From Nakamurella sp. A5-74 (GTDB lineage Bacteria; Actinomycetota; Actinomycetes; Mycobacteriales; Nakamurellaceae): a DNA stretch of 64,000 bases. This document shows positions 4,461 through 37,455 of the stretch, piece by piece. Numbering within the stretch: the stretch's first letter is position 1; each line of letters opens with the position of its first letter. The notes beneath the pieces were generated by a model. The model saw nothing but the letters and a program-made list of their open reading frames with translations, did not search any database and was not told the DNA's origin. The stretch spans positions 4,464,001 through 4,528,000 of the forward strand of contig NZ_CP159218.1 in NCBI RefSeq assembly GCF_040438885.1. Direction: 5' to 3'. The position numbers and the translations under genes were made by a program.

Positions 4461-5204
4461 GCCTGCAACCTACCCATCGGATCCGCGTCACGCCGGGTGG
4501 CGATTCCAGATCAGCCGAACTCGACAGCCGCTGGAGACCGGAGCTACTTCAACACCCACAGCAACTGCGCAGGTCGCGGTCTCCAGGAGCTGACACCTCG
4601 ACCGCGCCGCCGTGCCCTTGCGAATAAGCTCCCGCTCGTGACCGGCGGCGACTGGAGGGATGGCGGGTTCAGGCAGCGCCGGCCCTCTGGGGAGACTCTC
4701 GCCTGGGTTGCGTCGTCGATGGGTCAGGGCAGTCGCGTCGTCGGCTACCGCCGCATGACCGGGGGCGTTTCATCGGCTGTGAACCGGCTGACCGTTGAAC
4801 GAGATGGAGCGCGCTCGTTCGTCGTACTGCGGCAGTACCCCGGCTGCGTCGACCTGCAGGGGACCTTGGAGAAGGAGATTGCCAACCTCGGTCTGGTGGC
4901 GAGAACTAGGCTCCCGGTTCCGAGCGTCCTGGCTTCCGATGTCTCCGGTGCTGCGACCGGAGGTTTGCCGTCGATGCTCATGACACGGTTGCAGGGGCAT
5001 GTCGACCTCAGCCCGGCGGACCCTCGATCGTGGATGACGAGGATCGCGGAACTTGCTGTACTGCTTCATTCCCTCGATCTCCCCGCTAAAGACTTCAGGC
5101 CCTGGACGGACTCCTGGATCGTTCCTCCGAGCCAGTTTCAGATACCGGTCGGTGCACAGAAACCAGCTGTGTGGATGGCGGCGTTCGGCGTCATGGCGGC
5201 GGCG

Positions 5205-5213
5205 CCGCCTCCG
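5205..5213. repeat. Target-site duplication, left copy
   Basis: CCGCCTCCG occurs here and again at 6666-6674, immediately outside the inverted repeats of the insertion sequence. Nine bases is within the 8-9 bp range known for the IS256 family. The duplicate is unmutated, which suggests a fairly recent insertion. Confidence 0.85.
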
Positions 5214-6665
5214 GGTCAAGCCCGGTGGAGTGGTGTACGAGTGGGGGTGGTCCCTCGTGCTGGTTGATCGGTCAGGCTGTGAGCTGACCGATGGTGGTGG
5301 GGTCGGTGGTTGCCTCCTTCTCGGGCAGAGGGTGGTTGTCCAGGACAGCGCGGGCTCGGGTCAGGACGTCGAGGCCGAGGTAGCGGCGCATCTCGGTCCA
5401 TTCGTCGTGTTGCTCGGCCAGGACAGCGCCGACGAGGCGGATCACGGCGTCGCGGTTGGGGAAGATCCCGACCACGTCGGTGCGGCGCCGGATTTCCCGG
5501 TTCAGTCGTTCGTTGGGGTTGTTCGACCAGATCTGGCGCCAGATCTCTTTCGGGAACGCAGTGAAGGCCAGGATGTCTTCGCGAGCTGCTTCCAGGTGCG
5601 CGGTCACGGCGGGCAGCTTCTGCGTGAGCGCGTCGATGACCCGGTCGAACTGGGCGTGTACCGCGGGGGCATCAGGCTGGTCGTACACGCTGTGCAGCAG
5701 GGTCTTCACCCACGGCCAGCTGCTCTTCGGGGTGGCCGACATCAGGTTCGCTGCGTAGTGGGTTCGGCAGCGTTGCCAGGACGTGCCGGTCAACGTGGCA
5801 CCGACGGCCTCGATCAGTCCCTGGTGGGCATCGGAGGTCACCATCGCGACCTTGCCGGCCTTGGTCAACCCGCGGGCGTGCAGATCCCGGAAGAACGCGA
5901 GCCACCCGGCACCAGATTCCGTCGAAGATGTTTGCACGCCGAGGATCTCGCGGTAACCGTCGGCGTTCACACCGGTCGCGACCATGACCGCGATCTTCAC
6001 CACCCGGCCGCCTTCCCGGACCTTCATCGACAAGGCGTCAGCGGCCAGGAACGTGTACGGGCCGGCATCCAACGGGCGGGTCCGGAACTGCTCGACCTGA
6101 CCGTCGAGGTCCTTCGCCATCTCGGACACCTGGGACTTCGACAGGCCGGTGATCCCCAACGCCTGGACCGACTTGTCCATCCTGCGGGTGGAAACCCCCA
6201 GCAGGTAACACGTCGCGACGACGCTGGTCAGGGCGGCTTCCGCCCGCCGCCGTCGGGTCAGCAACCACTCCGGGAACAACGTTCCCTCCCGCAGTTTCGG
6301 GATCGCCACATCGATCGTGCCGCTGCGGGTGTCCAGGTCCCGATGCCGGTACCCGTTGCGTTGATTCGTCCGATCCGGATCCCGCAGGCCGTAGCCGGCG
6401 CCACACACACCGTCGGCCTGCGCCGACAACAACGCGTTCACGAACGTGGACAGCATGTCCCGCATCAGATCAGGGCTGGCCTGGGCCAGATGCTCGTGCA
6501 GGAACCGTTCAGGGTCGATACTGGGCACAGCGGTCATCGTGATGCTCCTTCTTCGAGTCGGTTTTCGCAGATCACTCGAAGGATCACCCGGTGACCGCGC
6601 CTACCTCAGGCAGGACACGCTCACCAGCAACATCGTCGTCGTACACCACTCTGCAGGACTCAACC
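5214..6665 (-). mobile_element. IS256-family insertion sequence, complete
   Basis: The element is 1452 bp, with imperfect 27-bp terminal inverted repeats at 5214-5240 and 6639-6665. They match at 21 of 27 positions, and the inner 13 bases, GAGTGGTGTACGA, are identical. It carries one transposase gene on the minus strand. A 7-bp inverted repeat, CTTCGAG (6551-6557) and CTCGAAG (6575-6581), lies just upstream of the transposase start and may be part of its promoter control. Both ends and the target duplication are intact, so the copy looks potentially active. Confidence 0.9.
5272..6537 (-). CDS. IS256-family (MULE) transposase
   Basis: A protein of 421 residues, the normal full length for the family. 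It has a typical N-terminal segment (NALLSAQADGVCGAGYG, then NQRNGYRHRDLDTRSGTIDV). The DDE catalytic residues can be placed in LAADALSMKVREG (first Asp), VTSDAHQGL (second Asp) and NNPNERLNREIRRRTDVVG (Glu). The RCRTHYAANLM segment between them is also characteristic. It catalyses cut/copy-out transposition through a circular intermediate in studied relatives. No frameshift or internal stop is present. Confidence 0.95.
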   Translation of the reverse strand: MTAVPSIDPERFLHEHLAQASPDLMRDMLSTFVNALLSAQADGVCGAGYGLRDPDRTNQRNGYRHRDLDTRSGTIDVAIPKLREGTLFPEWLLTRRRRAEAALTSVVATCYLLGVSTRRMDKSVQALGITGLSKSQVSEMAKDLDGQVEQFRTRPLDAGPYTFLAADALSMKVREGGRVVKIAVMVATGVNADGYREILGVQTSSTESGAGWLAFFRDLHARGLTKAGKVAMVTSDAHQGLIEAVGATLTGTSWQRCRTHYAANLMSATPKSSWPWVKTLLHSVYDQPDAPAVHAQFDRVIDALTQKLPAVTAHLEAAREDILAFTAFPKEIWRQIWSNNPNERLNREIRRRTDVVGIFPNRDAVIRLVGAVLAEQHDEWTEMRRYLGLDVLTRARAVLDNHPLPEKEATTDPTTIGQLTA

Positions 6666-7177
6666 CCGCCTCCGCCCAGGGACACTGATGCCTTCCTGCA
6701 CGGTGATTTCCTGCCCGTCAACATGTTGTGGTCGCGCGGGAGAATCACCGGCTTGGTCGACTGGAACGGCGCCCACCGGGGGTCGCGAGCGATCGACATC
6801 GGGCACTGCCGGCGATACTTGGCGGCGCTCTATTCGCCCGAGTGGTCCGACCAGCTTCGATCGCTCTATGAGTCAATCGCCGGCGTGCCTCTCAATCCGT
6901 GGTGGGACCTGTACGCGCTGCTGCACCATGACGACAGTCAGCCGAAGTGGATCCGCGGTCAGGTTGCTGGGCGTCGTCCCGTTGATGCGGCTGGCATGAC
7001 GTCTCGGATCGAGGTCGTGATCGAGACAGCGCTACGGCGCTTGGGATAACTGCGGCCGCGGGGTCGAAGTACCGAGCGGACTCCCGAGCGGCACGCGAGT
7101 GCTGTCTAAGGGCAAGAATGTGCCGACCGGCCGGCTCATGCTGGTGCTGTCCCCGCAGGACGATGGGATCCTGGACT

Positions 7178-8604: not shown

Positions 8605-8838
8605 ACACGTTGGGAGACAGCAGCTCTCGGGCATAAGTGGGAACCGGCAATATCGGATCTCTTGGTATGCCGCGTCCGTCGGACATGATCTGGCTAGCTC
8701 CGCACGCAGGCTCACGAGCAAGACCCTCGCCCCGAAGCCCCGCCAACCAGCTTCGCCGCAGGCCGAGACCACCCTCCGCCAGCTGACCGAATCGTGCATC
8801 CGTTGCAAGCTCCGTGTCATAGCGGCAGGTCAGCGAGC

Positions 8839-9819
8839 TCACCGATGCGCGGGTGACGAATGGCGGGCCGCGATGCGGTTGGCGCGGTCACGTAGATGAG
8901 CGCGAAGGGATTCGGGTGCCAGCACTTCGACGTCGTCGACCACCTGCCACAGTGCCCACTCGGCATGCTCGATGTCCTGGAAGGTGACCTCCAACCGGAC
9001 CGTGCCGTCCATGGTGGGTTCGCCGACGCGGACAGCCAGCGCGGCACGTGCCAGATCGTGTTGCCGAGCGGGGATTGCCGTCACCACCGCGGTGACTTGA
9101 TCGACTTCGGAGAGGTACTGCGCGCACCGATCGCGCCACAGACGCTCGAGATCGACTCGGTCGAGCCGCTCGGCTGGGAGAGGAAGCTCCTGCGCCGCCA
9201 GGATTCGGGACAGCCGGTAGGTGCGGTCGGCGCCGTCTCTGGTCGCCAGTAAGTAGGCCCGGTCTCGCGCGGTGACCAGGCCAATGGGGTGCACCGTCCT
9301 CCAGGATGGTGCTCGTCCAGAAGCTGCGTAGTGGATGCGGAGTTGATGTCCGGCGGTCACCGCACGACGGACCTCGATGAGTGCGGACGTGGACGCACTG
9401 CCCGCCTCGGGCACGCGTGTCACAAGGTCGGCCTCAGGTTCGATCAGCAGGCGCCGCGCCGCTGCACCTGCGCTGACCCGATGTCCGGCGGGGAGCACAT
9501 CCACCACCTTGCGCACCGCCGTGGACAGCGCTGCGCCCAGTCCCAGCGCACCGTCGCCGCGGCCCTGCCCCGCGACGAGCAATGCCAGAGCTTCGTCCTG
9601 GTTCAGGCCGGCGAAGTCGGCTTCCCAACCGGGCAACAGTGCGAATCCTCCGTACCGACCGCGTTCGGCGTAGACAGGAACGCCGGCCAGGGACAACGCC
9701 TCGATGTCGCGCAGCACCGTTCGACGAGACACCTCCAGCTCCTGAGCGAGCGTCGCAGCCGTGACGACTCCACGTTGACGAAGCATCAGCACCAGCGAGA
9801 TCAACCGTTCGGCACGCAC
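8839..9819 (-). CDS. WYL-domain transcriptional regulator (DeoR-type HTH)
   Basis: A protein of 326 residues. An N-terminal HTH_11 domain (MRAERLISLVLMLRQRGVVTAATLAQELEVSRRTVLRDIEAL) is followed by AGVPVYAERGRYGGFALLPG. The central WYL domain (about residues 140-230, HQLRIHYAASGR...HPIGLVTARDRAYLLAT) and a C-terminal WCX extension complete the usual architecture. WYL domains bind ligands, in some cases nucleic acids or nucleotides. It is divergent from the RidA gene, and the gap has a TGACA-N5-TGTCA dyad. It most likely regulates the RidA gene and itself. Confidence 0.85.
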   Translation of the reverse strand: MRAERLISLVLMLRQRGVVTAATLAQELEVSRRTVLRDIEALSLAGVPVYAERGRYGGFALLPGWEADFAGLNQDEALALLVAGQGRGDGALGLGAALSTAVRKVVDVLPAGHRVSAGAAARRLLIEPEADLVTRVPEAGSASTSALIEVRRAVTAGHQLRIHYAASGRAPSWRTVHPIGLVTARDRAYLLATRDGADRTYRLSRILAAQELPLPAERLDRVDLERLWRDRCAQYLSEVDQVTAVVTAIPARQHDLARAALAVRVGEPTMDGTVRLEVTFQDIEHAEWALWQVVDDVEVLAPESLRAHLRDRANRIAARHSSPAHR

Positions 9820-9839
9820 ACAGCGACGCTAGCCATATG

Positions 9840-9854
9840 TGACAGCGGGTGTCA
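9840..9854. promoter_or_regulatory. Dyad TGACA-N5-TGTCA between WYL and RidA genes
   Basis: TGACA (9840-9844) and TGTCA (9850-9854) form a short perfect dyad about 20 bases upstream of the WYL start and 52 bases upstream of the RidA start. Its position suits an operator for the WYL regulator. Short dyads can occur by chance. Confidence 0.35.
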
Positions 9855-9906
9855 CCTTGCCCTGAGAGGTTCGTGCTTGTCAGCAGGTCTCTCGAAAGGA
9901 ACCAAG

Positions 9907-10302
9907 ATGGAACGCACTGCAATCAACCCGGTCACCTGGTCGTCGGAGATGGGGTTCAATCAGGGTGAACTCGTCGTCGAAGGCACTCGGACCCTGTACA
10001 TCTCGGGGCAGACGGCCATGAGCAGCGACGGGAAGCCCCGGCATGAAGGCGACATGGGTGCGCAGCTGGCATTGGCTGTGGACAATGTCGAGGCGGTGCT
10101 CAACGACGCGGGTATGGCCCTGGCGAATCTGGTGCGGTTGAACGTGTTCACCACGTCTATCGATCAGCTCTTCCCGCACTACGGCGTTTTGGCGGGGCGG
10201 CTCGGAGCAGCCGGGGTTGCACCGGCCACGACCATGCTCGAAGTGACGCGGCTGGCCGTACCCGGCCAGATGGTCGAGCTTGAGGGAACGGCCGTCGCCT
10301 GA
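9907..10302 (+). CDS. RidA family (YjgF/YER057c/UK114) protein
   Basis: A protein of 131 residues, the normal length. Visible motifs are LYISGQTAMSSDGKPRHEGDMGAQLALAVDNVEAVL and the C-terminal PATTMLEVTRLAVPGQMVELEGTAVA, which holds the segment with the catalytic-site region of RidA proteins. Founder members deaminate reactive enamine/imine intermediates; many subgroups have other or unknown activities, and the arginine usually required for imine deaminase activity (in the R-x-x-V pattern) is not clearly placed here. The ATG at 9907 follows GAAAGGAACC. It is divergent from the WYL regulator, which probably controls it. Confidence 0.85.
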   Translation: MERTAINPVTWSSEMGFNQGELVVEGTRTLYISGQTAMSSDGKPRHEGDMGAQLALAVDNVEAVLNDAGMALANLVRLNVFTTSIDQLFPHYGVLAGRLGAAGVAPATTMLEVTRLAVPGQMVELEGTAVA

Positions 10303-10462
10303 CCTCGGCTGGCGGCTGTTTGTGCCGCTCACGCCGGACACCTCGGCGCGAGCGGCACGGCTGAGCACCCGTGCATTCCGCTGTCAGCAGCCTCGGGCCG
10401 ATGGGGTGCGGGAGTTGTGTGGGGAGAGGCTCGCATCGGTCATCACCTGCAATAATGGGTCT

Positions 10463-10822
10463 TCAGGTTGACATAATCATTATTATCGGCGATAATGTGA
10501 CGGTTGTTTCTGCCCTGTCAAGTGCGGGCCGCCACTTCCACACACCCCCGACGTTGACGATCTCGCTGGGGAGGACTGCGGCATCGTGAAGGCGCGCCGC
10601 GAGGTCACGTTTAGTCCCGGAGACCCGGAGGCCGTTCTCCCGGCAGGTTTGGCGGAGATCCGGCCCTCGCCAGCACATGAGATCGCTGACATGCAGGCTC
10701 GGCGGCCGCGACGAGGCGCACAGATCGCAACGACCATCAGATCCAACAGCGAGGTCTTCTGTGGTGATGAGACCCATCATCCGGCCGTGAGTGTCGTAGA
10801 CCGGCAGTAACGATTCGATCAT
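10463..10822 (-). CDS. Hypothetical protein with SAP-like segment, ending inside a dif-like site
   Basis: A protein of 119 residues. The first 26 residues (LLPVYDTHGRMMGLITTEDLAV) look like a piece of a CBS-type fold, and residues about 54-78 (DLRQTCRENGLRVSGTKRDLAARLHDA) match the SAP helix-extended-helix pattern found in DNA-binding proteins. RCDLCAS contains a CxxC pair. The last codons are written by the dif-like sequence at 10466-10493, and the stop lies just outside it, so the 3' end may have been created by recombination at that site. Function unknown; it may be a remnant. Confidence 0.4.
   Translation of the reverse strand: MIESLLPVYDTHGRMMGLITTEDLAVGSDGRCDLCASSRPPSLHVSDLMCWRGPDLRQTCRENGLRVSGTKRDLAARLHDAAVLPSEIVNVGGVWKWRPALDRAETTVTLSPIIMIMST
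10466..10493 (-). other. dif-like XerC/XerD recombination site, copy A
   Basis: Read on the minus strand, the site has a XerC-type arm containing CGCCGATAA, a 6-bp centre TAATGA, and a XerD-type arm TTATGTCAAC. The layout of 11 + 6 + 11 bases and the TTATGTCAA arm match what is known of actinobacterial dif sites. A second copy in the same orientation lies at 18305-18332; the two differ within the central 6 bases and only outside the conserved arms otherwise. Conservation of the arms with divergence of the centre is what is expected of functional Xer sites. Confidence 0.7.
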
Positions 10823-11217
10823 TGTTGTTGTCGCCTTACTGTGTTGACCGTGGTGACTGGATGACGTGGCGTTCAGCGCGCAGCTCGTGGTTTGACTTCC
10901 GTGATCCGCGCACCTGAACGGAGCCGGGCACGCACGGTGAGCTACGTACTCCTACGCCTGCTGCTCGGTGAGCACGACCTCGTGCTCACCTCTGGCGAGG
11001 CCGTCGAGTTCAATATCCACACCTCGATATCCACACCCCCATTCGTTCGCCAACGCGGCAGAGACACCCACACAACTTCTGATGCTGATGGGCACTCAGG
11101 GAACAATGCGCGCACGCGCACGCGCGCGCCCGACCCAAACGAGCCCCCGCACCTGAGAGCCGGCGAGCTCGCAAGCGCTAGGCCTGATGCTCTTGGATAG
11201 CCCGACTCACCGGGTCG
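10823..11217. other. Intergenic region without a convincing gene
   Basis: About 395 bases between the SAP-like gene and the end of the LuxR-family gene. It contains a 24-bp alternating purine-pyrimidine run at 11106-11129 (ATGCGCGCACGCGCAC and onward), a type of sequence that can adopt Z-DNA. A 102-codon frame here has shadow-like composition (Arg/Thr/Pro-rich). I see no RNA gene. Confidence 0.5.
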
Positions 11218-13920
11218 TCAGGAGCCGATCTTGGGCCGGTCCCGCAATTGTCTGCGCGAAGAGATGTCAAGCTTGCTGAAGATGTTGCGCAGATGGGCGT
11301 CGACCGTACGAGGACTGATGAACAGCCGAGCTGCCACCTCGTTGGAAGTCGCGCCGGTGGCGACCAGTCGCGCGATGTTTAGCTCTTGCATGGTGAGCTC
11401 GTCCTGCGCAGGCCCGGAGCGACTACGAGCCCTCTCGCCCGTGGCACGTAACTCACCGGCGGCGCGCTCGGCGAACGCGTCGATCCCCGCCCCGGAGAAC
11501 AGGTCGTGCGCAGCGCGGAGGTGCAGGCGGCAGTCCCGCCGACGACCCTCACGTCGTAACCACTCCCCGTAGAGCAGAAGCGCCCGACCCCGGTAGGGCA
11601 ACAGGGGGCTGTCCTGCAAGAGCTCAACAGCCTGCCGGTAGTGCTCCTCGTCGCCAGTCACCAGCCCGCGCGCGTAGGCGGCAATACCCAGACCGGACCC
11701 GGTGCCGCCTGCGGAGGTCCGTTCGGTCAACGACTTCAACGCCACGGTCGCCGCCGCGTGGTCTCCGCAACGAACCGCGGCCTCGATCAGTTCAGGCAGT
11801 GCCAGTCCGGCAAGGAGAAGGTCCCCGTGGACACTGGCCTGCTGCGCAGCGGCCAGTGCGGCCGGGTAGTTGGCCAGGCCGTTGTGCAGCACGGCCGCCG
11901 CCCAGTGCACGTTGGCCATCAGCTGTCCCGAACCCGAAGCCGTCGCAGCTGCCGTGGCCTCGGCGAACAGCTCAAGCGCGTTCTCGCGGTTCCCGCGTAT
12001 CGAGGCCAGGTGCAGGCGTGGATAGCTCAGCGGGATCGTCCCGGTCGCATCAGCGATCGCCTCTTCCTCGGCGACCGCAGCCATCGCCTCGGCGAGGTCG
12101 CCTGTGAGCACCGCCCTCGATGTCGCCTGGGCGAGACCCAGCCGCAGACCCATCGGGGAGCCTGACTCGCGACCGGTCTTGAGCAGCCACTCCACGATCT
12201 CCGCGTGCACAGGCTGGTCCCACAGCTCCCCGGCGATCATGACGGAGAGCGCGGGGCGCCGCACCCAGAGGGGTTCGTCGCCGCCGTCAAGAGCCTTGCG
12301 TAGCAGCGGAGCGGCCGCAAGGTGCCCCTGGGTGGACAGGACGGCCAGGGCGTCGAGCACGTCGGGTGTACCGGCTGCCGGCGCGGTGGACCGAGCCGCT
12401 TCCAGGACCCGGTCCATGACACCGTGTGCCCGGCCCACGACCATGCTCATCTCCAGCGCATCCAGCAGACACTCCCGCGACTTCTGCGGGTCGACCTCGG
12501 CCAGCCGCCGCGCAGCGCGCAGCATGAGGTCCGGGCCCTTTCCGTCGTTGTGTCGCAGGAATGCGATCCGGCCGCGCAGCTGATCGACCTGGGCGTAGCG
12601 AAGCGCGTCCAGGCCCGTGGTTTCGACCGTAGCGAGCAGGCTCGCCGCGGTATCGGTGGCGCCCGCCTCCAGATGGGCCTCCGCCGCCGCGATGGTCCGA
12701 TCGATCCGACGTGCCGCATCCAGCGTCAGCTCGGCCGCGCGTTCGGCAAAGGCCGCCGCGGCGACCACGCCTCCGCGTGCCTGAGCCCGAGCGGCGGACC
12801 GTTCCAGGTCGGAGGCGACGTCGTCGTCGGGGCCGGTGCCGGCCTGTGCGCGGTGCCAGACCCGCCGGTCAGGATCCGCGATCGCGTCGGTGGCCTCAGC
12901 CAGCACCCGATGGGCGCTGCGACGCCGCTCCGCGTCCGCGACTCGGTAGACCGCAGACCGCGCGAGTGGGTGGCAGAAACGGATGCGGGTGCCGAACTCA
13001 ACCAGCCCGGTGGCGGTCGCGGCAGCAGTGCTGGTTGGCACATCAATGTCGAGCAGGCGCGCGGCGGGCCAGAGCAGGCCAGGGTCCCCGGTCGGATCGG
13101 CGCTTGCGACGATCATGAGCATTTGCGCACCTTCGGGCAGCGTGTCCAGCCGTTCGACGAAACCGCGTTCGATCCGGGTCGGCACCGAGGAAAAGTCCAG
13201 CGGGGCGAAGCCGCCGGCGGTAGGCATTTCGAGCAACGCCAGCGGATGCCCGCGGGCCTCGGTCAGGATCCGGTCACGTACCTGTTCGTCGAGCGTTACA
13301 TGGCTCTGCGACGCCAGGAGCGTCCGCGCCTCGGCATCGCTCAACCCATCGATCACCAGGCCCGGCAGCCGATCCAGCTCGTCCACTGGAGACGGTGTGC
13401 GGAATGCGAACATCATGGCGATCCGTTCGACGGTGATCCGCCGGGCGAGGAACGTCAACGCTTGCGTCGACGCGCTGTCCAGCCAGTGGGCATCGTCGAT
13501 CACGCACAACAACGGCCGGTTCCGGGCGGCTCGCGCCAACAGCTCCAGGGTCGCCAAGCCGATGCGAAACACCTCCGGGGTGCCGGCGGCGAGCCCGAAC
13601 GCGACCCGGAGCGCGTCGCGGTGCGGCGCAGGCAGGTCGTCGAGCTGGGAGAGCAGCGGGGCGCAGAGCTGGTGCAACGCGGCGAACGGCAGGTCGGCCT
13701 CGAACTCCGTTCCGCAGGCCGTGACGACGTCGTATCCGGTCGCCGCGCCGGTGGCTTGCTCGAGCAGTCGGCTCTTGCCGATGCCAGCAGGCCCGCGCAG
13801 GACGAGAACCGCTCCCCGTCCATTGCGAGCCGTGTCGAGCAACTCGTCGATCCGGGCGATCTCGACCCGCCTACCAATGACCGGGGTAGAAGACGTCGCC
13901 GGGTTCCGCACGTTCTGCAT
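11218..13920 (-). CDS. Large LuxR-family (LAL) ATPase transcriptional regulator
   Basis: A protein of 900 residues. The N-terminal AAA/STAND-type ATPase domain has Walker A GPAGIGKS at residues 43-50 and a Walker B-like strand LLCVIDDAHWLDSAS near residue 142. A long alpha-helical, tetratricopeptide-like middle follows. The C-terminus (about 835-895) is a LuxR HTH: LTMQELNIARLVATGATSNEVAARLFISPRTVDAHLRNIFSKLDISSRRQL. Such LAL regulators activate nearby or distant operons in response to unknown ligands. It is divergent from the membrane protein/SDR group at 14110-16176 and is the obvious candidate for controlling it. Confidence 0.92.
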   Translation of the reverse strand: MQNVRNPATSSTPVIGRRVEIARIDELLDTARNGRGAVLVLRGPAGIGKSRLLEQATGAATGYDVVTACGTEFEADLPFAALHQLCAPLLSQLDDLPAPHRDALRVAFGLAAGTPEVFRIGLATLELLARAARNRPLLCVIDDAHWLDSASTQALTFLARRITVERIAMMFAFRTPSPVDELDRLPGLVIDGLSDAEARTLLASQSHVTLDEQVRDRILTEARGHPLALLEMPTAGGFAPLDFSSVPTRIERGFVERLDTLPEGAQMLMIVASADPTGDPGLLWPAARLLDIDVPTSTAAATATGLVEFGTRIRFCHPLARSAVYRVADAERRRSAHRVLAEATDAIADPDRRVWHRAQAGTGPDDDVASDLERSAARAQARGGVVAAAAFAERAAELTLDAARRIDRTIAAAEAHLEAGATDTAASLLATVETTGLDALRYAQVDQLRGRIAFLRHNDGKGPDLMLRAARRLAEVDPQKSRECLLDALEMSMVVGRAHGVMDRVLEAARSTAPAAGTPDVLDALAVLSTQGHLAAAPLLRKALDGGDEPLWVRRPALSVMIAGELWDQPVHAEIVEWLLKTGRESGSPMGLRLGLAQATSRAVLTGDLAEAMAAVAEEEAIADATGTIPLSYPRLHLASIRGNRENALELFAEATAAATASGSGQLMANVHWAAAVLHNGLANYPAALAAAQQASVHGDLLLAGLALPELIEAAVRCGDHAAATVALKSLTERTSAGGTGSGLGIAAYARGLVTGDEEHYRQAVELLQDSPLLPYRGRALLLYGEWLRREGRRRDCRLHLRAAHDLFSGAGIDAFAERAAGELRATGERARSRSGPAQDELTMQELNIARLVATGATSNEVAARLFISPRTVDAHLRNIFSKLDISSRRQLRDRPKIGS

Positions 13921-13971
13921 TCTAGTTCTGTTTCTACGTGGCCACTGGACCGGTAGGTGCCATCGGATCTA

Positions 13972-13984
13972 GGTGGTTTCCACC
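13972..13984. promoter_or_regulatory. Dyad GGTGG-TTT-CCACC in divergent promoter region
   Basis: GGTGG (13972-13976) and CCACC (13980-13984) are separated by TTT, 52 bases upstream of the LuxR-family start and 126 bases upstream of the membrane-protein start. It could be an operator for the LAL regulator. It is short, so confidence is low. Confidence 0.3.
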
Positions 13985-14109
13985 GACGCGACGACGCCAC
14001 CGGGCACGCGATTGTTGTTGTGGCATCGCGGACAACCCCTGACACCGGAGACACCAGCCGAGGGAGACCGTGGCCCGCCCAGGGCCGTAGCCGCGAAGAA
14101 GGGATCGAC

Positions 14110-14559
14110 ATGTCAGTCTTCACCGCTTCCAAGAGCATCACCCCCCCTGCACGGTGGGCGGATTATACCGGCCGCACGCTGATGGCCGTCACCGGACTCT
14201 CGACCCTCATTCCATTTGCCAACGGGATCTCGCGGGTCGCCAACGCGCCCGAGGCGTACATGTTGACGGAGTTCTGGCGCACGACCGCCTACCTCGTCTT
14301 CGCTGGATTGTGGCTGCTGCTCGCGTGGGCTCCTCGCCGGCAACGTGGCATCTGGGAACTCCTGCTGATCCAGAAGTCGGCCGTCTCCGTGTTCGCTCTG
14401 GTGAACCTCGGTGCTACCGACTCGGTGCGGGACAGCATCAGCGACAGCAGCCTCGTGGTGGCAACGCTGGTTGCCTATGTGCTGTGCCGCGGCTGGCAGG
14501 CCTGGCGAGCCGATGACGCGGCGGCGCCGGCGATGCGCAGTCCGCAACTGCCTGCCTGA
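14110..14559 (+). CDS. Small integral membrane protein (149 aa)
   Basis: Four hydrophobic segments are visible: TLMAVTGLSTLIPFANGI, TTAYLVFAGLWLLLAWA, ELLLIQKSAVSVFALVNLG and SSLVVATLVAYVLCRGW. Loops are short and the C-terminus is Ala-rich. The size and pattern resemble small DoxX/DUF4345-like membrane proteins, but no signature is clear. The start at ATG 14110 follows AGAAGGGATCGAC. It precedes two SDR genes in the same direction and probably forms an operon with them. Confidence 0.65.
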   Translation: MSVFTASKSITPPARWADYTGRTLMAVTGLSTLIPFANGISRVANAPEAYMLTEFWRTTAYLVFAGLWLLLAWAPRRQRGIWELLLIQKSAVSVFALVNLGATDSVRDSISDSSLVVATLVAYVLCRGWQAWRADDAAAPAMRSPQLPA

Positions 14560-14664
14560 TTGGCCGGACAGCTGCCACTACGGCGACCTGCCCACTCACG
14601 ACCGCCCACTGCGCAGGTTCCACCAGAACGCAGCGGTGCGCAGAAACCTACGAAAGGCACAACC

Positions 14665-15423
14665 ATGCAGCACATGAACAACAAGATCGCCGTCGTCACC
14701 GGTGGAGGTTCAGGGATTGGCCTGGCTATTGCGGAGGAGCTCGTCGAGCTTGGAGCCACGGTCGTCATCACAGGCCGTCGCCAGAGCACCCTCGACGACG
14801 CCACCAACAGGATCGGCCCTGCCTGTACGGGACAGGTCGCCGATGTCTCCAGCGAGCAGGATATGGCTGCCGTCTACGCAGACGTGGTTGCCAAGCACGG
14901 GCGCCTCGACATCGTGATCGCCAACGCAGGTGCGGGGTACCACTCGGTGCTGGGTGCGATCACCGAGAAGGAGTTCGACGCCACGTTCAACATCAACGCC
15001 AAGGGCGTCCTGTTCACCGTCCAGACTGCACTCCCCCACATGTCGGCCGGCGGATCGGTCGTGATCGTTGGTTCGACCGCCTCGATCAATCCCCCTCGCG
15101 GAATGAGCATGTACGGACGCGCCAAGGCAGCGGTCCGCGACTTCATCCGGTCCTGGATCCAGGACATCAAGGGCACCGGCATCCGCATCAACGTGCTCAG
15201 TCCCGGCGCCGTTGACACCGAATCTTTGCGCAACGCCCTCGCCCGCGCACAGGGCGCAGACCAGGTCCAGGTCGGGATCGAACGCATGGGCGCCGGAAGC
15301 CCCATCGGACGCATAGCCCAGACCAGCGAGATCGCCAAGGCAGTCGCGTTTCTTGCGTCCGACGACGCCAGCTTCATCCACGGGGTTGAACTGTTCGCCG
15401 ATGGCGGACTGGCCCAGGTCTGA
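14665..15423 (+). CDS. SDR-family oxidoreductase
   Basis: A classical short-chain dehydrogenase/reductase of 252 residues. The NAD(P)-binding TGGGSGIG motif is at residues 12-19, the NAG motif lies in VIANAGAGY, the catalytic Ser in VIVGSTAS, and Tyr150 and Lys154 form the YxxxK pair (MYGRAKAA). GRRQ after the second strand suggests NADP preference. The C-terminus HGVELFADGGLAQV is typical. A ribosome site GAAAGG precedes ATG 14665. The next SDR starts 15 bases after its stop. The substrate is not predictable. Confidence 0.92.
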   Translation: MQHMNNKIAVVTGGGSGIGLAIAEELVELGATVVITGRRQSTLDDATNRIGPACTGQVADVSSEQDMAAVYADVVAKHGRLDIVIANAGAGYHSVLGAITEKEFDATFNINAKGVLFTVQTALPHMSAGGSVVIVGSTASINPPRGMSMYGRAKAAVRDFIRSWIQDIKGTGIRINVLSPGAVDTESLRNALARAQGADQVQVGIERMGAGSPIGRIAQTSEIAKAVAFLASDDASFIHGVELFADGGLAQV

Positions 15424-15438
15424 GAGAAGGAGAACCTC

Positions 15439-16176
15439 ATGAATGACATCAACAACAAGGTCGTGGTCATCACCGGAGCCAGCAGCGGTATGGGAGAGGC
15501 AACAGCTCTGCACCTCGCCGAGCGCGGCGCCAAGATCGTTCTCGGAGCCCGACGGGCAGATCGACTCGAGGCCCTGGCAACGCGCATCGTGGGGGCGGGC
15601 GGCGAGGCAGTCTGGCTGCCCACCGACGTCAGCCGACGCGCCGACATGGAGGCCCTCATCGCGTTGGCCACCACGACATACGGGCGCCTGGACGTCCTGG
15701 TCAACAACGCCGGGATCATGCCGATTTCCGCTATCGACGACCTCAGGGTCGACGACTGGGAAGCCATGATCGACGTCAACATCAAAGGCGTCCTTTACGG
15801 CATCGCCGCCTCACTCCCGGTGTTCCGCGCCCAGAACGCCGGTCACGTCATCAACGTTGGGTCCACCGCGACTCTCAGGATTGTCCCGACCATGTCGGTC
15901 TACTCCGGCACCAAGATGGCCGTCCGCGCCATCAGCGAGGGACTGCGCCAAGAAGCCGGCGCGGACCTTCGGGTCACGCTCATCACCCCTGGCATGACCT
16001 CGACCGAAGGTATGGGCGTCATCCCCGATCCCGAGGTGCGTGTAGGGCTGCAGGCGACCATCGACAAGATCGCCATGCCCGCATCGGCCATCGCCTCCGC
16101 CATCGCGTACGCGATCGGACAGCCATCCGGGGTCGACATCGGCGAAGTGGTGGTGCGACCTACCGCGCAGGCGTAG
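15439..16176 (+). CDS. SDR-family oxidoreductase
   Basis: A second classical SDR, 245 residues, with TGASSGMG at about residues 11-18, LVNNAGIMPIS, a Ser in NVGSTATL, and the Tyr155/Lys159 YxxxK pair (VYSGTKMA). ARRADRL suggests NADP binding. It is related to, but clearly diverged from, the upstream SDR. It is preceded by GAGAAGGAG and followed by a strong hairpin (16184-16218), so it is likely the last gene of the operon. Confidence 0.92.
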   Translation: MNDINNKVVVITGASSGMGEATALHLAERGAKIVLGARRADRLEALATRIVGAGGEAVWLPTDVSRRADMEALIALATTTYGRLDVLVNNAGIMPISAIDDLRVDDWEAMIDVNIKGVLYGIAASLPVFRAQNAGHVINVGSTATLRIVPTMSVYSGTKMAVRAISEGLRQEAGADLRVTLITPGMTSTEGMGVIPDPEVRVGLQATIDKIAMPASAIASAIAYAIGQPSGVDIGEVVVRPTAQA

Positions 16177-16183
16177 GCACCCG

Positions 16184-16218
16184 CTCGCTGCACGACCGTA
16201 ATTTGGCCGTGCAGCGAG
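16184..16218 (+). terminator. Hairpin terminator after SDR operon
   Basis: CTCGCTGCACG (16184-16194) pairs perfectly with CGTGCAGCGAG (16208-16218). With the adjoining bases the stem is 13 of 14 pairs. It begins 8 bases after the SDR stop. A poly-T tail is absent, as is usual for actinobacterial hairpins. Confidence 0.65.
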
Positions 16219-16626
16219 ACTGCGATGTCGGCTGTCGAGCTGCCAGGTGACCCCAGGTCAGCTGACAGTGCTTCGGCCTTCAGAATGTGGCGCATGAGGC
16301 CTCGATGACTGGTTCGACCGCGAGATGGATTGACAGCTTCGCCAAGCTCGCGGGTTCACCGCGCGGTGCTGCGCCGGTACCGCCGTCGGGTGCGCGACGC
16401 GGCCGCTGCTCGTTCGTCGACGCTGTTGATGGTCGGCCTCTGGTGAGACGTGATGTCATCGCCGAAGGCCGGTACCGCGGTCGATACGACCGCATCGCTA
16501 GACTGGGAATTCGTTCCGATTGTGGCGCGCACGAAGACTGTTCACCGGGCGCTCAGCCCGGTGTCCTTTGACTCCCAGCCGTTCACCGTCGAAGACGACC
16601 AGTAGTCGAGAAGGTCGGGGGACCTC
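16219..16626. other. Intergenic region without a convincing gene
   Basis: About 400 bases. Short frames on both strands (for example 16287-16571 plus and 16280-16495 minus) overlap each other and have Arg/Gly/Pro-rich products, so neither is called. GGTACCGCGGTCGATACGACCG near 16471 has weak dyad symmetry. I see no RNA gene. Confidence 0.5.
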
Positions 16627-16938
16627 ATGACCGAGTACGACGACGAGATCGAGCGGGGCCGGTCGCTGGCCGGTGAAGCTGCCGCGGCGAGCGCAGCGCT
16701 GAACCGGGAGGCCACCCGGATCGGGGCGGTCGGGGGTCAGCCGGTCCCACCGGACACCGGGACGGCCGCGGGTGACGCGGCGTACCGGACGGCCTGGCGG
16801 CGAGAAGTGTTCGCCTCGCAGATGTTCTGGACGTGGGTGAAGCAACAGTCCCGGTTCGTCACTGATCAGGATCTCGGGGTGCTGCTGCGGGTCCTCGCCG
16901 GCCAGGACCCCGCCACCGACGACGACCGGGACTCGTGA
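16627..16938 (+). CDS. Hypothetical protein (103 aa)
   Basis: An acidic, Ala-rich soluble protein. The middle (AYRTAWRREVFASQMFWTWVKQQSRFVTDQDLGVLLRVLAGQDP) is predicted helical. Its stop TGA overlaps the ATG of the thermonuclease gene (16936-16940), so the two are translationally coupled. No family recognised. The coupling suggests that it is a partner, chaperone or inhibitor of the nuclease; that is inference. Confidence 0.6.
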   Translation: MTEYDDEIERGRSLAGEAAAASAALNREATRIGAVGGQPVPPDTGTAAGDAAYRTAWRREVFASQMFWTWVKQQSRFVTDQDLGVLLRVLAGQDPATDDDRDS

Positions 16939-17507
16939 TGGTTCGGCAACCGACCAGGGTGCGGGTGATCCGGAGATCCTCAACCACCTTCGGCAGCGTG
17001 CTGGGCGGCCTGCTGTTGCTGACCGGCGCGATCCTCATCCCGATCAGCATGGCCAACGACCCGACCCCGGAGAAACAGGACGCGGCCGAGGCAGCCGTCG
17101 GTATCGAGGTGACCGTCACCCGGGTGATCGACGGGGACACCATCGAAGTCCGACGCGACGACGGGGTGATCGGTCGGGTCCGGCTGATCGGTATCAACTC
17201 GCCCGAGCTGGCCCACGACGGGAAGCCGGCGCAGTGCGGCGCTGAGATGGCCAGGGATCTCCTGCGGCCACTGAACGGTCAGACCATCCGGATCGCCCAC
17301 GACGCCAGCCAGGCGGACACCGACAAGTACGACCGCACCCTGGCTTACGCCCGGCACGGCGGCCTGGACGTGGGCGCCGAGCAGATCGGCGCAGGCGCCG
17401 CCCGCGAGTACACCTACGGCGCGAGCTTCTACGAGCAGCGCAGCGAGTACGTCCGGCTCCAGAACTACGCCCGCCACCAGAACCTGGGCCTGTGGGGAGA
17501 GTGCTGA
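16938..17507 (+). CDS. Membrane-anchored or secreted thermonuclease (SNase domain)
   Basis: A protein of 189 residues. An N-terminal hydrophobic segment (TFGSVLGGLLLLTGAILIPISMA, about 17-39) acts as signal or anchor. The staphylococcal-nuclease domain follows: VTRVIDGDTIEV, GRVRLIGINSPE (the RxRLxGIxxPE motif with its arginine and glutamate), QCGAEMARDLLRPLNGQ, DKYDRTLAYA (the DxYxRxLA motif), and a C-terminal YARHQNLGLW. Such enzymes cleave DNA and RNA with calcium, usually outside the membrane. GTG 16935 is an alternative start. Confidence 0.9.
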   Translation: MVRQPTRVRVIRRSSTTFGSVLGGLLLLTGAILIPISMANDPTPEKQDAAEAAVGIEVTVTRVIDGDTIEVRRDDGVIGRVRLIGINSPELAHDGKPAQCGAEMARDLLRPLNGQTIRIAHDASQADTDKYDRTLAYARHGGLDVGAEQIGAGAAREYTYGASFYEQRSEYVRLQNYARHQNLGLWGEC

Positions 17508-17650
17508 GATGCGTCAATGCGCGCAGACCGCTATCGAGGTCAGGCGACGCGTTGTACAACAGTGCCCGTGCCTGCGCCGACACCGCATCGAGCAGTGGCA
17601 GTAACCGCAACGACAGCAGCGATGTTCCCCCTGGCAGAGGAGACCCGCCC

Positions 17651-18256
17651 ATGACCAGCGACCACAGCACCGCGGAACCGTTCGTCCGCGGCAACGATCG
17701 ACTCAACCGCATGCTTGCGGATCCGGAGACCGCCCGGCGGGTGGCCGTGATCCGCGCCGGCATGGACGCCGTAGACGCCGAGTCCCGCAAGAAGATGGCG
17801 CTGACGCGGCCCCTGCCGGCCGGAGCAGCGAAACCTCCCGCCGGCGCAGTGCGTCAGGAAAACGACGACGAATCCGGCTACGATGCGATCTGGGCCGTCC
17901 CGACATTCCCCAAGCCCTTCTCCCGGGACGACGGCATGGTCGTCATCGGGGCCGCCGTCCATCTCAACTCAGGGTGGGATTTCTTCGACGCAGAAGAACC
18001 GGCGTACGTCTACGGGCGCGCCGGCAGGATGGGTGCATCCTCCGGTGTGATGATCCGCAAGGCGGCCGTGCGCGGCCAGGTCCTAGAGGGCACTGGTGAC
18101 CAGTTTCGGCAGCTCTACCTTGGGGACCACATCAAGCGATCGCCCGAGAACGATGCGTATTACATCCAGCGGTTCGCCGCCGGACTCCAAGAGCATTCCC
18201 CGTTCTCGTCGCACTGGTGGCCAGCCAGGCGGCCGCCGGCTGCACGCACCTGGTGA
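17651..18256 (+). CDS. Hypothetical protein (201 aa)
   Basis: ATG 17651 is preceded by GGCAGAGGAGA. The first two-thirds (to about residue 180) has natural composition, including AIWAVPTFPKPFSRDDGMVVIGAAVHLNSGWDFFD and GDHIKRSPENDAYYIQRFA. The last dozen residues (WPARRPPAARTW) look like out-of-gene sequence, and the frame ends only 49 bases before the second dif-like site. The gene may have been cut at its 3' end by recombination there. No family recognised. Confidence 0.55.
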   Translation: MTSDHSTAEPFVRGNDRLNRMLADPETARRVAVIRAGMDAVDAESRKKMALTRPLPAGAAKPPAGAVRQENDDESGYDAIWAVPTFPKPFSRDDGMVVIGAAVHLNSGWDFFDAEEPAYVYGRAGRMGASSGVMIRKAAVRGQVLEGTGDQFRQLYLGDHIKRSPENDAYYIQRFAAGLQEHSPFSSHWWPARRPPAARTW

Positions 18257-18304
18257 CTGCACAACCGAGGGCGAGAGTGGTTGTCCTGCAAAGTATTCAA
18301 GACT

Positions 18305-18332
18305 AGTTGACATAATATTTATTATCGGCGCT
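18305..18332 (-). other. dif-like XerC/XerD recombination site, copy B
   Basis: On the minus strand the site has XerC-type arm CGCCGATAA, centre TAAATA and XerD-type arm TTATGTCAAC. Orientation is the same as copy A, 7839 bp away. Between GTTGACATAA and TTATCGGCG the two copies match at all positions except two in the 6-bp centre. Direct repeats of dif would allow excision of the intervening segment by XerC/XerD. No xer gene lies in the window. Confidence 0.7.
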
Positions 18333-33956: not shown

Positions 33957-34227
33957 GTGACGGAAAGGCCCCCAGGTCCTGACCGGAACGCTCTTCGGCC
34001 TGTACAACCTGCCTCTGCCCGTCACCTGATCGGCCACCAGGCACACCGGCAGCTTGCGCGACTAATGACGTCGGCGCCCTTCGCGTCAAGGATTCTCGTC
34101 ACCTCGCTCAGACAGAAGGACCCCACCGGGACTGTCATTCAGATGCCGCTGATCATCATCGCGACCCCACCCCTTGTGTCCAAGGTTCGCAGCAGGGTCT
34201 TGTCCCGCGTGTGGAAAGCAACCGATC
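33957..34227. other. Region after the nan operon without a gene
   Basis: AGGTGACGG (33955-33963) and CCGTCACCT (34019-34027) are perfect inverted repeats, but the 55-base gap makes a simple terminator unlikely. No convincing gene occurs on either strand. Confidence 0.4.
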
Positions 34228-34250
34228 GTTACCTTTACATCAGCGCCAAG

Positions 34251-34304
34251 TTGTAAAGCTTCCCGTGTACGCGCCAAATCTGAGGTTGCGTTACAACGTA
34301 AAGC
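34251..34304. other. Resolvase-site-like block, copy 1
   Basis: It contains TTGTAAAGC-TT-CCCGTGTA (34251-34269), then GTTGCGTTACAA (34285-34296) and GTAAAGC (34298-34304). The 19-base first part recurs at 36790-36808 with only two changes, and the GCGTTACA element also recurs. TGTAAAGC and GCGTTACA are near inverted copies of each other, as resolvase half-sites are. The spacing between elements differs from copy 2 (14 versus 24 bases). Confidence 0.55.
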
Positions 34305-34582
34305 GGACACGACTTCCGCGACACTTTCTCTCCTGTCACTCCCGTTCTCGGGATGGCCGGGTCGGGACTGTCTCGGTATGGGCCGGAGGTCTCCGAAGCG
34401 CCCCTACGCGCGGGGATGGGGAACAGGCGTAGTCATCCATGGCCACACTCCGCCTGCCGCGATCAGCGAGGCCCGAACCGGCCCCGCCCGTCCGGGTGAT
34501 GATTGGCTGACGCAATCTGGCAGGGTCGCACCATGACCGTCACCCTCGATGGCCACTACAGCCCGGTCTCGCAGAAACCGCG

Positions 34583-35086
34583 ATGACCGTCGGCGTCGTG
34601 GCGTGGCCCGACATCGAACTGTCGCGGGCCGTAACCGCGATCTGGCGCGCGGTGGCCGACGCTGGCTGCCCGTCCCTCGTCGGAACAGTGCAGATCCCCC
34701 ACCTCTCGTTCGTGGTGGCCGACTCGTTCAACGGCGACGCGGTAGCCAGAGCGTGCGGCGCGGTCCCCCGCGAGCCGATCCAGATCGACGCCGTCACCAT
34801 CGGTGTCTTCCCTGGCGGGATCGTCCACCTGGGCATCCGCCCGACAACCGCACTGCTCGAAGAGCACCGCCGCGTCCAGGCCGCCGCCGCGCCGTATCTC
34901 GTCGAACCGTGGCCGTATTTCGCACCCGACGAGTGGACGCCGCACATCACCATCGCCATGGGCCTGGACTCCGACCAAGTAAGCCGCGCCGTCAGTGCCA
35001 CCCTGACGTCGCTCCCTCTTAGCGGACACCTGGTTCGCGGCGGCATCGAGGACGGCGACACCGGCCACCGGATCCTGCTGCAGTGA
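34583..35086 (+). CDS. 2'-5' RNA ligase / 2H phosphoesterase family protein
   Basis: A protein of 167 residues with two H-x-[ST]-x motifs, PHLSF (about residue 40) and PHITI (about residue 115), the signature of the 2H superfamily. It is longer than and only distantly similar to the protein at 3054. It lies between the two resolvase-site-like blocks with the hydrolase at 35178 and so may be cargo. The start ATG 34583 is chosen because homology-like sequence begins there (MTVGVVAWPDIE). Substrate unknown. Confidence 0.8.
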   Translation: MTVGVVAWPDIELSRAVTAIWRAVADAGCPSLVGTVQIPHLSFVVADSFNGDAVARACGAVPREPIQIDAVTIGVFPGGIVHLGIRPTTALLEEHRRVQAAAAPYLVEPWPYFAPDEWTPHITIAMGLDSDQVSRAVSATLTSLPLSGHLVRGGIEDGDTGHRILLQ

Positions 35087-35177
35087 CCGCGCGAGCGAGA
35101 GTGCTTCTACCGAGTCCATTGCCGCAGGTGAGGACAGGCACGTGCGTTCGCACTGACCACCGTGCCAAGATCCAGGG

Positions 35178-36563: not shown

Positions 36564-36748
36564 CGCCAGCGATTCCGAACTCCCCAGTTGCCTCGGACAC
36601 CTCAACTCCAGAACCGCTTCCCCCTCGGTCAACTGATCTAGGGGCAGACCCGATGGGTCCGCCCCCACATCGGTTGACCGTCGGGGTGGACGGTTCAGAC
36701 CGCGGTGGACGACACCGCTCATGCTCGCCTGTCCGCGAACGATCGTTC

Positions 36749-36844
36749 GCGTTACAACCTGGCCCGCCACCCGTCGCAGCAGGTCGAGTTTGTAAAGCAA
36801 CCCGTGTAGACACCTATGTCACGCGCTTGGGGGTTTGCGTTACA
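36749..36844. other. Resolvase-site-like block, copy 2, upstream of the resolvase gene
   Basis: Elements: GCGTTACAA (36749-36757), TTGTAAAGC-AA-CCCGTGTA (36790-36808), and GTTTGCGTTACA (36833-36844). It directly precedes the resolvase start at 36853, the usual position of res relative to a resolvase gene. It is a direct repeat of the block at 34251-34304, about 2.5 kb away. Confidence 0.6.
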
Positions 36845-36852
36845 GTCCGGGC

Positions 36853-37455
36853 TTGCGCATCGGCTACGGCAGGGTCTCCACCCGCGACCAACACCCCGAA
36901 GCGCAACACGACGCCCTCACCGCCGCCGGCTGCGACCAGATCTTCATCGACCACGCCTCCGGCAAACTCGCCCGCCGACCCCAGCTCGAGCAAGCCCTCG
37001 CCGTCGCCGGCCGCCAGGGCGACCAGCTCGTCATCACCAAGCTCGACCGGCTCGGCCGATCCCTCGAACACCTCATCGACCTGTCCCACGACCTGAACAC
37101 CCGCGCGGTCGACCTGGTCGTCCTCGATCAAGGCATCGACACCTCCACCGCCGTCGGCCGAATGTCCTTCCACATCCTCGGCTCCATCGCCGAATACGAA
37201 CACGCCCTCATGCCCGAACGCACCCACGACGGCCTCGCCGCCGCCCGGGCTCGCGGCCGCACCGGCGGCCAGAAACCCAAGCTCGGCACCCGCCAGGCCC
37301 GGGTGGCCCGGCAGATGTACGAGGAGATGGTCGAGAAGGGCCGGCACCGCTCCACCGTCGCCCAGATCGCCACCGAGTTCGGCGTCGCCCGACCCACCAT
37401 TTGCCGCTACCTCGACGCGGCACCCACCGAATTGGAGGCCGCAGCGTCGTCCTGA
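36853..37455 (+). CDS. Serine recombinase (resolvase/invertase family)
   Basis: A protein of 200 residues with a TTG start, giving the classical opening MRIGYGRVSTRDQHPEAQ with nucleophile Ser9. Further motifs are FIDHASGKLARRPQLEQAL, LVITKLDRLGRSLEHLI and HILGSIAEYEHALMPERT, then a C-terminal Hin-type HTH (STVAQIATEFGVARPTICRYL). The size fits a resolvase or invertase, not a large integrase. A longer TTG start at 36835 would lie inside the site-like block and is less likely. No transposase of the Tn3 type is next to it, so it is an orphan resolvase, perhaps acting on the repeated blocks. Confidence 0.92.
   Translation: MRIGYGRVSTRDQHPEAQHDALTAAGCDQIFIDHASGKLARRPQLEQALAVAGRQGDQLVITKLDRLGRSLEHLIDLSHDLNTRAVDLVVLDQGIDTSTAVGRMSFHILGSIAEYEHALMPERTHDGLAAARARGRTGGQKPKLGTRQARVARQMYEEMVEKGRHRSTVAQIATEFGVARPTICRYLDAAPTELEAAASS

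Follow-up and report, generated by a model that had tools for sequence, protein, structure and literature searches.

Two dif-type Xer sites on the chromosome of Nakamurella sp. A5-74 and a candidate family of mobile elements inserting beside such sites

Two dif-type cores and a common flanking arm

A stretch of 64,000 nucleotides of the Nakamurella sp. A5-74 chromosome (the window, G000:C1:4464001-4528000, where G000 is the host genome, one contig of 4,748,569 bases) carries two dif-type cores (Xer sites), which stand as direct repeats with 7.8 kb between them. An earlier note, made from the sequence of the window alone, had described them as two direct dif-type sites with common arms that differ in the centre. 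Here we relate these sites to a candidate family of actinobacterial mobile elements (the element family) that would insert beside Xer sites. The argument is built on the following features, where "core arms" denotes the two halves of the core and "arm" the motif flanking it.

10467-10491, minus strand: core of site 1, CGCCGATAA-TAATGA-TTATGTCAAC, an Xer-type target core
18306-18330, minus strand: core of site 2, CGCCGATAA-TAAATA-TTATGTCAAC, an Xer-type target core
10435-10452, minus strand: arm of site 1, TTGCAGGTGATGACCGAT, 18 bp after TTATGT, resembling the left end of the element (TTGCATCTGATGCAT and alike)
18278-18292, minus strand: arm of site 2, weak: TTTGCAGGACAACCA, where TTGCA stands 18 bp past TTATGT and the palindrome is lost
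8774-8842, minus strand: leader relic of a recombinase gene, with TTGCAACGGATGCACGAT at 8791-8808 and no recombinase coding sequence after it

The core arms are identical at both sites, and a 25-bp local alignment of site 1 with site 2 contains 2 mismatches, both within the 6-bp centre. At up to 3 mismatches the window holds these two matches only, compared with a mean of 0.00 and a maximum of 0 in 100 dinucleotide shuffles, so that alignment and shuffling both confirm the sites as they had been described. The core arms are also those proposed for the dif of Frankia alni, CACGCCGATAATGCACATTATGTCAAGT, outermost bases excepted (excerpt of PMC3025954). On the plus strand of site 1 (10468-10496) a near-perfect sigma-70-like promoter, TTGACA-N17-GATAAT, was seen by eye, which is absent at site 2.

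When the whole contig was searched with the pattern shortened slightly and 3 mismatches allowed, 6 matches were obtained (3 perfect, one with 2 and two with 3 mismatches; control 0). With three perfect matches, the many further copies that the earlier note had named as speaking against its reading did not turn up. Besides the two window sites, the pattern is matched perfectly at 2,264,847 (centre TGTACA), which is taken as the chromosomal dif because it lies at 47.7% of the contig and because dnaA-, dnaN-, recF- and gyrB-like open reading frames (ORFs) were recognised by eye at the contig start. The window sites have non-dif centres and lie at about 94% of the contig, 2.2 Mb from dif, and thus do not qualify as a second chromosomal dif. 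The host possesses a XerD gene above the curated cut-off and another gene with XerC as its best match, below the cut-off; seven Phage_integrase matches fall at six places of the genome. Within the genus, a 24-base pattern with up to 1 mismatch occurs in 12 of 17 genomes, more than once only in the host genome and in G005, and two sites near each other are found in none of the other genomes. Across the order a shorter core is present in 189 of 397 genomes, in at least two copies in 13 of them (control: one match), and 115 viral stretches contain the core as well.

The outer flanks of the two sites differ, as the earlier note had stated; in addition, TTGCA stands exactly 18 bp after TTATGT at site 1, at site 2 and at dif, where it belongs to TTGCATCTGATGCAA. 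The pattern GATAA-N6-TTATGT-N18-TTGCA turned up in 15 of the 397 order genomes and in 10 of the 394 genomes searched at class level, with no match in either control, and more than one armed site is present only in this genome (three) and in G044 (two). Altogether 24 distinct armed sites were collected, host genome included (the order search supplied 18, the class search added 5, and 1 was reached by another route). The centre ends in CA, like that of dif, in 19 of them; the other five are the two window sites and one each in G044, in Arthrobacter sp. P2b (contig G400:C14) and in G288. A site model made from 17 sites of other genomes matched dif at E 2.6e-16 and site 1 with its arm (10491-10432) at E 1.1e-11, and at site 2 it matched the core part only (19.1 bits, E 1.3e-4).

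Some further dif-like sites were met on the way. Two weaker ones in the host genome (G000:C1:1121198 and 1136376; L023:1198-1219 and 16376-16410) lie 15.2 kb apart in direct orientation, with a 2717-amino-acid RHS-repeat gene with a Tox-REase-9 end, an insertion sequence (IS)-type transposase and an XRE/IrrE pair between them, and in G007 a dif-like site is situated about 3 kb from an RHS gene. Just past the chromosomal dif, at G000:C1 about 2265300 (L022:10314-10724), there is a PIN-domain gene with a neighbour that looks antitoxin-like by eye. In two contigs of Cryobacterium lactosi (L069, L073) the centre is TAATGA, as at site 1, and similar DNA extends about 110 bp downstream; L069 shows TTCGC-N7-GCGAA at 18 bp. 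The viral contigs L106, L121, L137, L157 and L173 have a common dif-type core with conserved flanks and changing centres.

A three-gene module beside armed cores and its plasmid relatives

At 9 of the 24 armed sites a tyrosine recombinase gene lies 265-344 bp from the core, always in one orientation. Recombinase matches were obtained in 10 of the 24 loci; L301 is excluded from the nine, since its gene is on the opposite side of the core, and L304 matches residues 1-123 of the recombinase only. Of the 24 loci, 22 reach at least 800 bp downstream, and L268, L269 and L304 hold 38, 70 and 826 bp. All three of the non-CA centres outside the window are accompanied by a recombinase, one of them partial. 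The recombinase gene is followed by a gene for a 110-amino-acid Cro/C1-type helix-turn-helix (HTH) protein (PF13443) and by one for a protein of about 500 amino acids, mostly about 483-542 and 590 in one case, with many conserved cysteines. For this third protein we found no Pfam family above the cut-off and no solved relative, and profile comparison was not significant. Many of its plasmid relatives are labelled "recombinase XerD" in the NCBI annotation, and it is at best a candidate for a recombinase.

First and third gene occur together in six genomes, three of which show the HTH gene as an ORF of its own, and a whole-module search found them in nine modules of eight genomes. G044 contains two module copies, 94% identical over 3,194 bp and diverging past the third gene, one at a core with a dif-type centre (the dif of G044 being assigned from its centre only) and the other 0.9 Mb away; a 71-bp piece of the third gene is repeated 1.6 kb further on. 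The palindrome of the arm recurs, as judged by eye, in the module leaders near the start codon. Chromosomal modules were also checked for another core at their far end, and none fitted within 4 mismatches. Decayed modules lacking an intact recombinase were recognised in G272 and in two congeners, G007 and G011, with nothing in the reversed control. By the whole-module model, a fragment of the recombinase remains in G007 some 9 kb from a core, G011 has core, arm and leader, and G272 core and arm adjoining the tail of a third gene.

Relatives of the recombinase at E <=1e-30 were detected in 194 of 72,556 plasmid records (252 places), and relatives of the third protein at E 1e-10 in 230 records. 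The geometry of insertion can be read from Paenarthrobacter ureafaciens AT. Its 146-kb plasmid pA (NZ_CP094490.1, 51645-61100) contains the element twice, head to tail, with 4,714 bp from one copy to the next. A second molecule of the same strain, pD (NZ_CP094493.1), was deposited as a plasmid; it is circular, measures 4,712 bp and has the same six genes, with 100% identity over the aligned pieces. On pA, copy 1 begins directly behind GCCGATAA-TTGACC-TTATGTAAAG, copy 2 directly behind the end of copy 1, and TAAGGTTG follows copy 2; in the pD circle the right end is joined to the left end and the core is absent. Because the core stands in front of copy 1 only and is missing from the circle, it is the target, and the element starts 4 bp after TTATGT. 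The fixed spacing of the arm is accounted for by this fixed starting point outside the core: the arm is the left end of the element. Our first reading, in which the core was part of the element, was overturned by the tandem copies and the circle. With the origin of the window cores thereby a guess of its own, the explanation favoured below became slightly less probable, plasmid sites alone slightly more so and a strict IMEX (see below) slightly less. In G159, three junctions show the same element from the same base on behind cores that differ, the third with a poor XerC arm, and a core with up to 3 mismatches precedes the recombinase in five of the seven plasmid modules read, in each case with a non-dif centre.

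Other motifs behind cores were also seen. The G159 loci L222, L218 and L287, with three different cores, carry one and the same second-branch left end with the arm TCGCA-N5-TGCGA at the same distance from the core, and the Nocardioides plasmid pCHL (L244, 104989) has the inverted repeat CGGCTAG-AAAA-CTAGCCG after its dif-like core.

Probable scars in the window, the bounded segment and the explanations weighed

The leader relic was identified with a model of nine element leaders (two from G044), from which the window was left out, in a search space of 204 kb. The model matches window positions 8842-8774 with 29.8 bits (E 4.8e-8), compared with E 0.83 for the best reversed control and 12.1 bits for the best score in 50 Markov copies of the window. 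Among three window matches to the operator pattern only the one in the leader relic is exact. The whole-module model matched site 1 with its arm at E 3.9e-8. Between this arm and the leader relic lie 1.4 kb with a WYL-type and a RidA-like gene; for site 2 the leader model found no relic. Both window cores keep both core arms, as expected for targets that the element family leaves whole. No tyrosine recombinase was found in the window or in 60 kb upstream by Phage_integrase and module-recombinase searches; the best weak match in the window (E 0.012) is taken as chance, and a sensitive search near the sites with the three module genes of G044 gave E 0.13 or worse among the matches listed. The window would hold scars and no working member of the element family.

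The genes bounded by the sites and those adjoining them are as follows.

8839-9819, minus strand: WYL-type regulator, between site 1 and the leader relic
within 9289-10302, plus strand: RidA-like gene, between site 1 and the leader relic
10463-10822, minus strand: small SAP-domain ORF; its 3' end extends across site 1
11218-13920, minus strand: AAA_16/GerE (LuxR-type) regulator of 900 amino acids, segment gene (Pfam)
13957-14559, plus strand: ORF of 200 amino acids without family match, segment gene
14560-15423 and 15439-16176, plus strand: two short-chain dehydrogenases, segment genes (Pfam)
16935-17507, plus strand: thermonuclease (SNase), segment gene (Pfam)
17492-18256, plus strand: segment ORF, residues 61-95 of which resemble the start of the HTH protein at the end of contig G395:C9
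18384-19139, minus strand: GntR regulator, about 50 bp past site 2

The family scan bears out the cargo that had been read from the sequence (LuxR-family ATPase regulator, short-chain dehydrogenases, nuclease). In 81 genomes the best relatives of the 900-amino-acid regulator are 64% identical (G030 and G027), the best congener reaching 48%; G030 and G027 have no core match, and a linked segment elsewhere was dropped as a candidate. Two segment proteins were searched in plasmids: the product of ORF 17492-18256 had no match, and the thermonuclease has relatives in 350 plasmid records, all below 60% identity. As a block the segment is present in 0 of 16 congeners, so the fixed synteny in relatives that would have told against the earlier note was not observed. 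No usable empty site was obtained from the congeners, the border being a breakpoint in G008 and G001 also. A prophage was rejected (five segment ORFs, no PHROG match), as was GC skew as a border marker, which is -0.009 at 0-18.3 kb, about -0.08 at 18.3-38 kb and again -0.011 at 38-56 kb.

Past site 2, the GntR gene opens a block with relatives in G008 and G001. Left of site 1 the sequence is a patchwork of a truncated potassium transporter, DUF932, kinase-like genes, the WYL/RidA pair (a similar neighbouring pair occurs in G001) and a split phosphotransferase-family gene. The latter (PF01636, window 4497-7049) is split by a Mutator-type transposase (5272-6537), and both of its parts match neighbouring stretches in G008:C4. 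Elsewhere in the window, the stretches at about 34219-35096 and at 36655-37416 have several further copies in the same genome, mostly at 82-94% identity, and the second of them matches a G135 protein that by eye reads like a resolvase start.

We consider it fairly probable that the window contains two plasmid-type Xer sites which were targets of the element family and were scarred by elements of which no recombinase survives. The element (tyrosine recombinase, small HTH protein and cysteine-rich protein of about 500 amino acids) would insert immediately beyond the XerD arm of a dif-type core. The core would then stay whole to its left, and the left end with the palindromic arm would always come to lie at the same distance. 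The HTH protein may bind the palindromes of arm and leader and thereby tie recombination to repression of the recombinase, and the choice of Xer sites would offer a landing place on nearly every circular replicon. Read along the minus strand, the order in the window would then be site 2, whose arm is worn, the 7.8-kb segment, site 1, whose arm is better preserved, a few foreign genes and the leader relic, behind which the recombinase of the element would have been deleted. A past visit of the element family is likely at site 1 and possible at site 2. The cores themselves are probably replicon Xer sites of plasmid type; their centres differ from that of dif, which makes a plasmid origin the simplest guess, and they might have arrived with plasmid-derived DNA. 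The view in the earlier note that the sites are of Xer/dif type, extra to the chromosomal dif and part of a mobile-DNA history is retained.

Several observations weigh against this explanation. The window cores are not accompanied by any plasmid gene that would point to carriage on a plasmid, and two of the seven plasmid modules (M. chubuense, Streptomyces) are without recognisable core. In the whole-module model the leader relic reaches only E 0.021, and it lies 1.6 kb from site 1 instead of about 0.3 kb, with WYL/RidA between. Its operator was first spotted by eye, and the operator pattern with 3 mismatches allowed has 3 window matches against 1.12 expected, and 9 of 100 shuffles gave at least as many. 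Searches of the window found no recombinase, HTH or third-gene sequence. The arm of site 2 consists of TTGCA and a few bases, and five fixed bases have a probability of about 1 in 1000 by chance. Finally, 11 of the 21 armed sites outside the host genome have no recombinase in their locus, which makes an old host origin of the arm possible; two of these 11 loci are too short, and two (G272, G011) retain module pieces.

Plasmid Xer sites or dif modules alone, that is, cores that came with plasmid DNA and a segment moved by XerCD, with arm and leader relic incidental, seem unlikely to us as the whole account, and yet they have points in their favour. A dif-like core with up to 1 mismatch is present in 4 of 11 actinobacterial plasmids (control 0), in three of these four the centre ends in GA, as at site 1, toxin-antitoxin genes adjoin such cores on plasmids and plasmid-like contigs (partly by eye), and the segment thermonuclease is of a kind found on many plasmids. 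The 11 plasmids were, however, chosen via the thermonuclease match, which biases the rate, and TTGCA at 18 bp is found at none of the four plasmid sites but at both window sites. Neighbouring sites of Acinetobacter dif modules stand in opposite orientation, whereas the two Xer-type sites that bound the segment are direct repeats.

A strict integrative mobile element exploiting Xer (IMEX), which without a recombinase of its own would have used host XerCD at dif and later been displaced together with both sites, is very unlikely. The occurrence of the core in viral stretches, the host XerD and XerC candidates and the lack of a recombinase between the sites are compatible with it; against it stand the 2.2 Mb to the chromosomal dif, the centres, neither of which is that of dif, and the PHROG scan of the five segment ORFs. 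The segment has no recombinase, but the leader relic of a recombinase gene lies nearby. Among the origins offered in the earlier note, a plasmid-type site is therefore best supported for the cores, and the strict IMEX falls with distance and centres. Replicon fusion found no support either, no replication or conjugation family being present among the window ORFs scanned with Pfam, with the 60 kb upstream viewed by eye only. The same holds for the present mobility of the segment, given the missing tyrosine recombinase in the window and 60 kb upstream, the differing centres and the fact that no empty version was seen. FtsK-activated XerCD acts near dif, and because the centres differ and the sites are far from the terminus, the segment is probably fixed now. 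In the IMEX LME-1, changes in the second site (there in the arms) lower excision (excerpt of PMC9765430).

That the sites are purely host-side, as extra dif copies combined with operators of a host regulator and no mobile DNA, is scarcely probable: the dif of this genome does have the palindrome with no module within the 20 kb read, but few genomes have the arm (15 of 397 in the order), paired nearby sites occur in no other of the 17 genomes of the genus, and a conserved position in congeners was not seen. Chance resemblance of the cores, for which nothing speaks, has practically no probability left and is already refuted by the absence of matches in the shuffles and in reversed-pattern controls (0).

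Beyond the window, we would give an even chance to the wider proposal that "dif hunters" with their own recombinase are widespread in Actinobacteria, recognise whichever dimer-resolution site a replicon has, insert directly beyond its XerD arm and leave it intact, circularise, form tandem arrays and carry an operator at a fixed distance. The window would then hold two visited replicon-type Xer sites that are now chromosomal, and armed dif sites elsewhere would be scars. If true, this would account for the genes that Actinobacteria have gained next to dif and to plasmid Xer sites, and core-N18-TTGCA would be a signature for finding insertions and their scars. The usual interpretation of additional dif-like sites is an IMEX, a dif module or a replicon fusion; in the present case it is the flanking arm that is informative.

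Comparison with known systems

The comparisons below refer to excerpts of the papers cited. IMEX such as LME-1 use dif, like the element family; however, they employ host Xer and recombine within dif, whereas the element family would use its own recombinase and leave the core outside (PMC9765430). The dif or pdif modules of Acinetobacter, some of them chromosomal, resemble the window in having extra dif-like sites with differing centres that bound cargo, and no arm or own recombinase is described for them in these excerpts (PMC12907356, PMC13141974).

Pairs of Tn554-related tyrosine recombinases, some without TnpC, are known from actinobacterial plasmids and chromosomes and, like the element family, occur in several copies per replicon in Actinobacteria (PMC3414803). 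Their long partner measures 611-828 amino acids, in contrast to the size of the third protein given above, and the words dif and Xer are absent from the main text of that paper (PMC3414803). The SE and GInt elements share with the element family the left-end position of a recombination operon, the presence of cargo, insertion at a specific site and a circular form (PMC10214605, PMC5385486); a left-end tyrosine recombinase operon and a circular form, which mark the SE/GInt/Tn554 group, are present in the element family. SE and GInt differ in gene order and sizes, and the element family inserts beside a whole dif-type core. GInts have been reported in many bacterial groups, so host range sets no difference.

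Insertion beside dif-type sites was not described in the excerpts of the open literature searched. The element family may be known under another name. The Tn5053/Tn402 transposons prefer the res sites of plasmids and thus likewise hunt a replicon's resolution site, with other enzymes and in another target system. What characterises the element family seems to be the targeting of dimer-resolution sites on chromosomes and plasmids alike.

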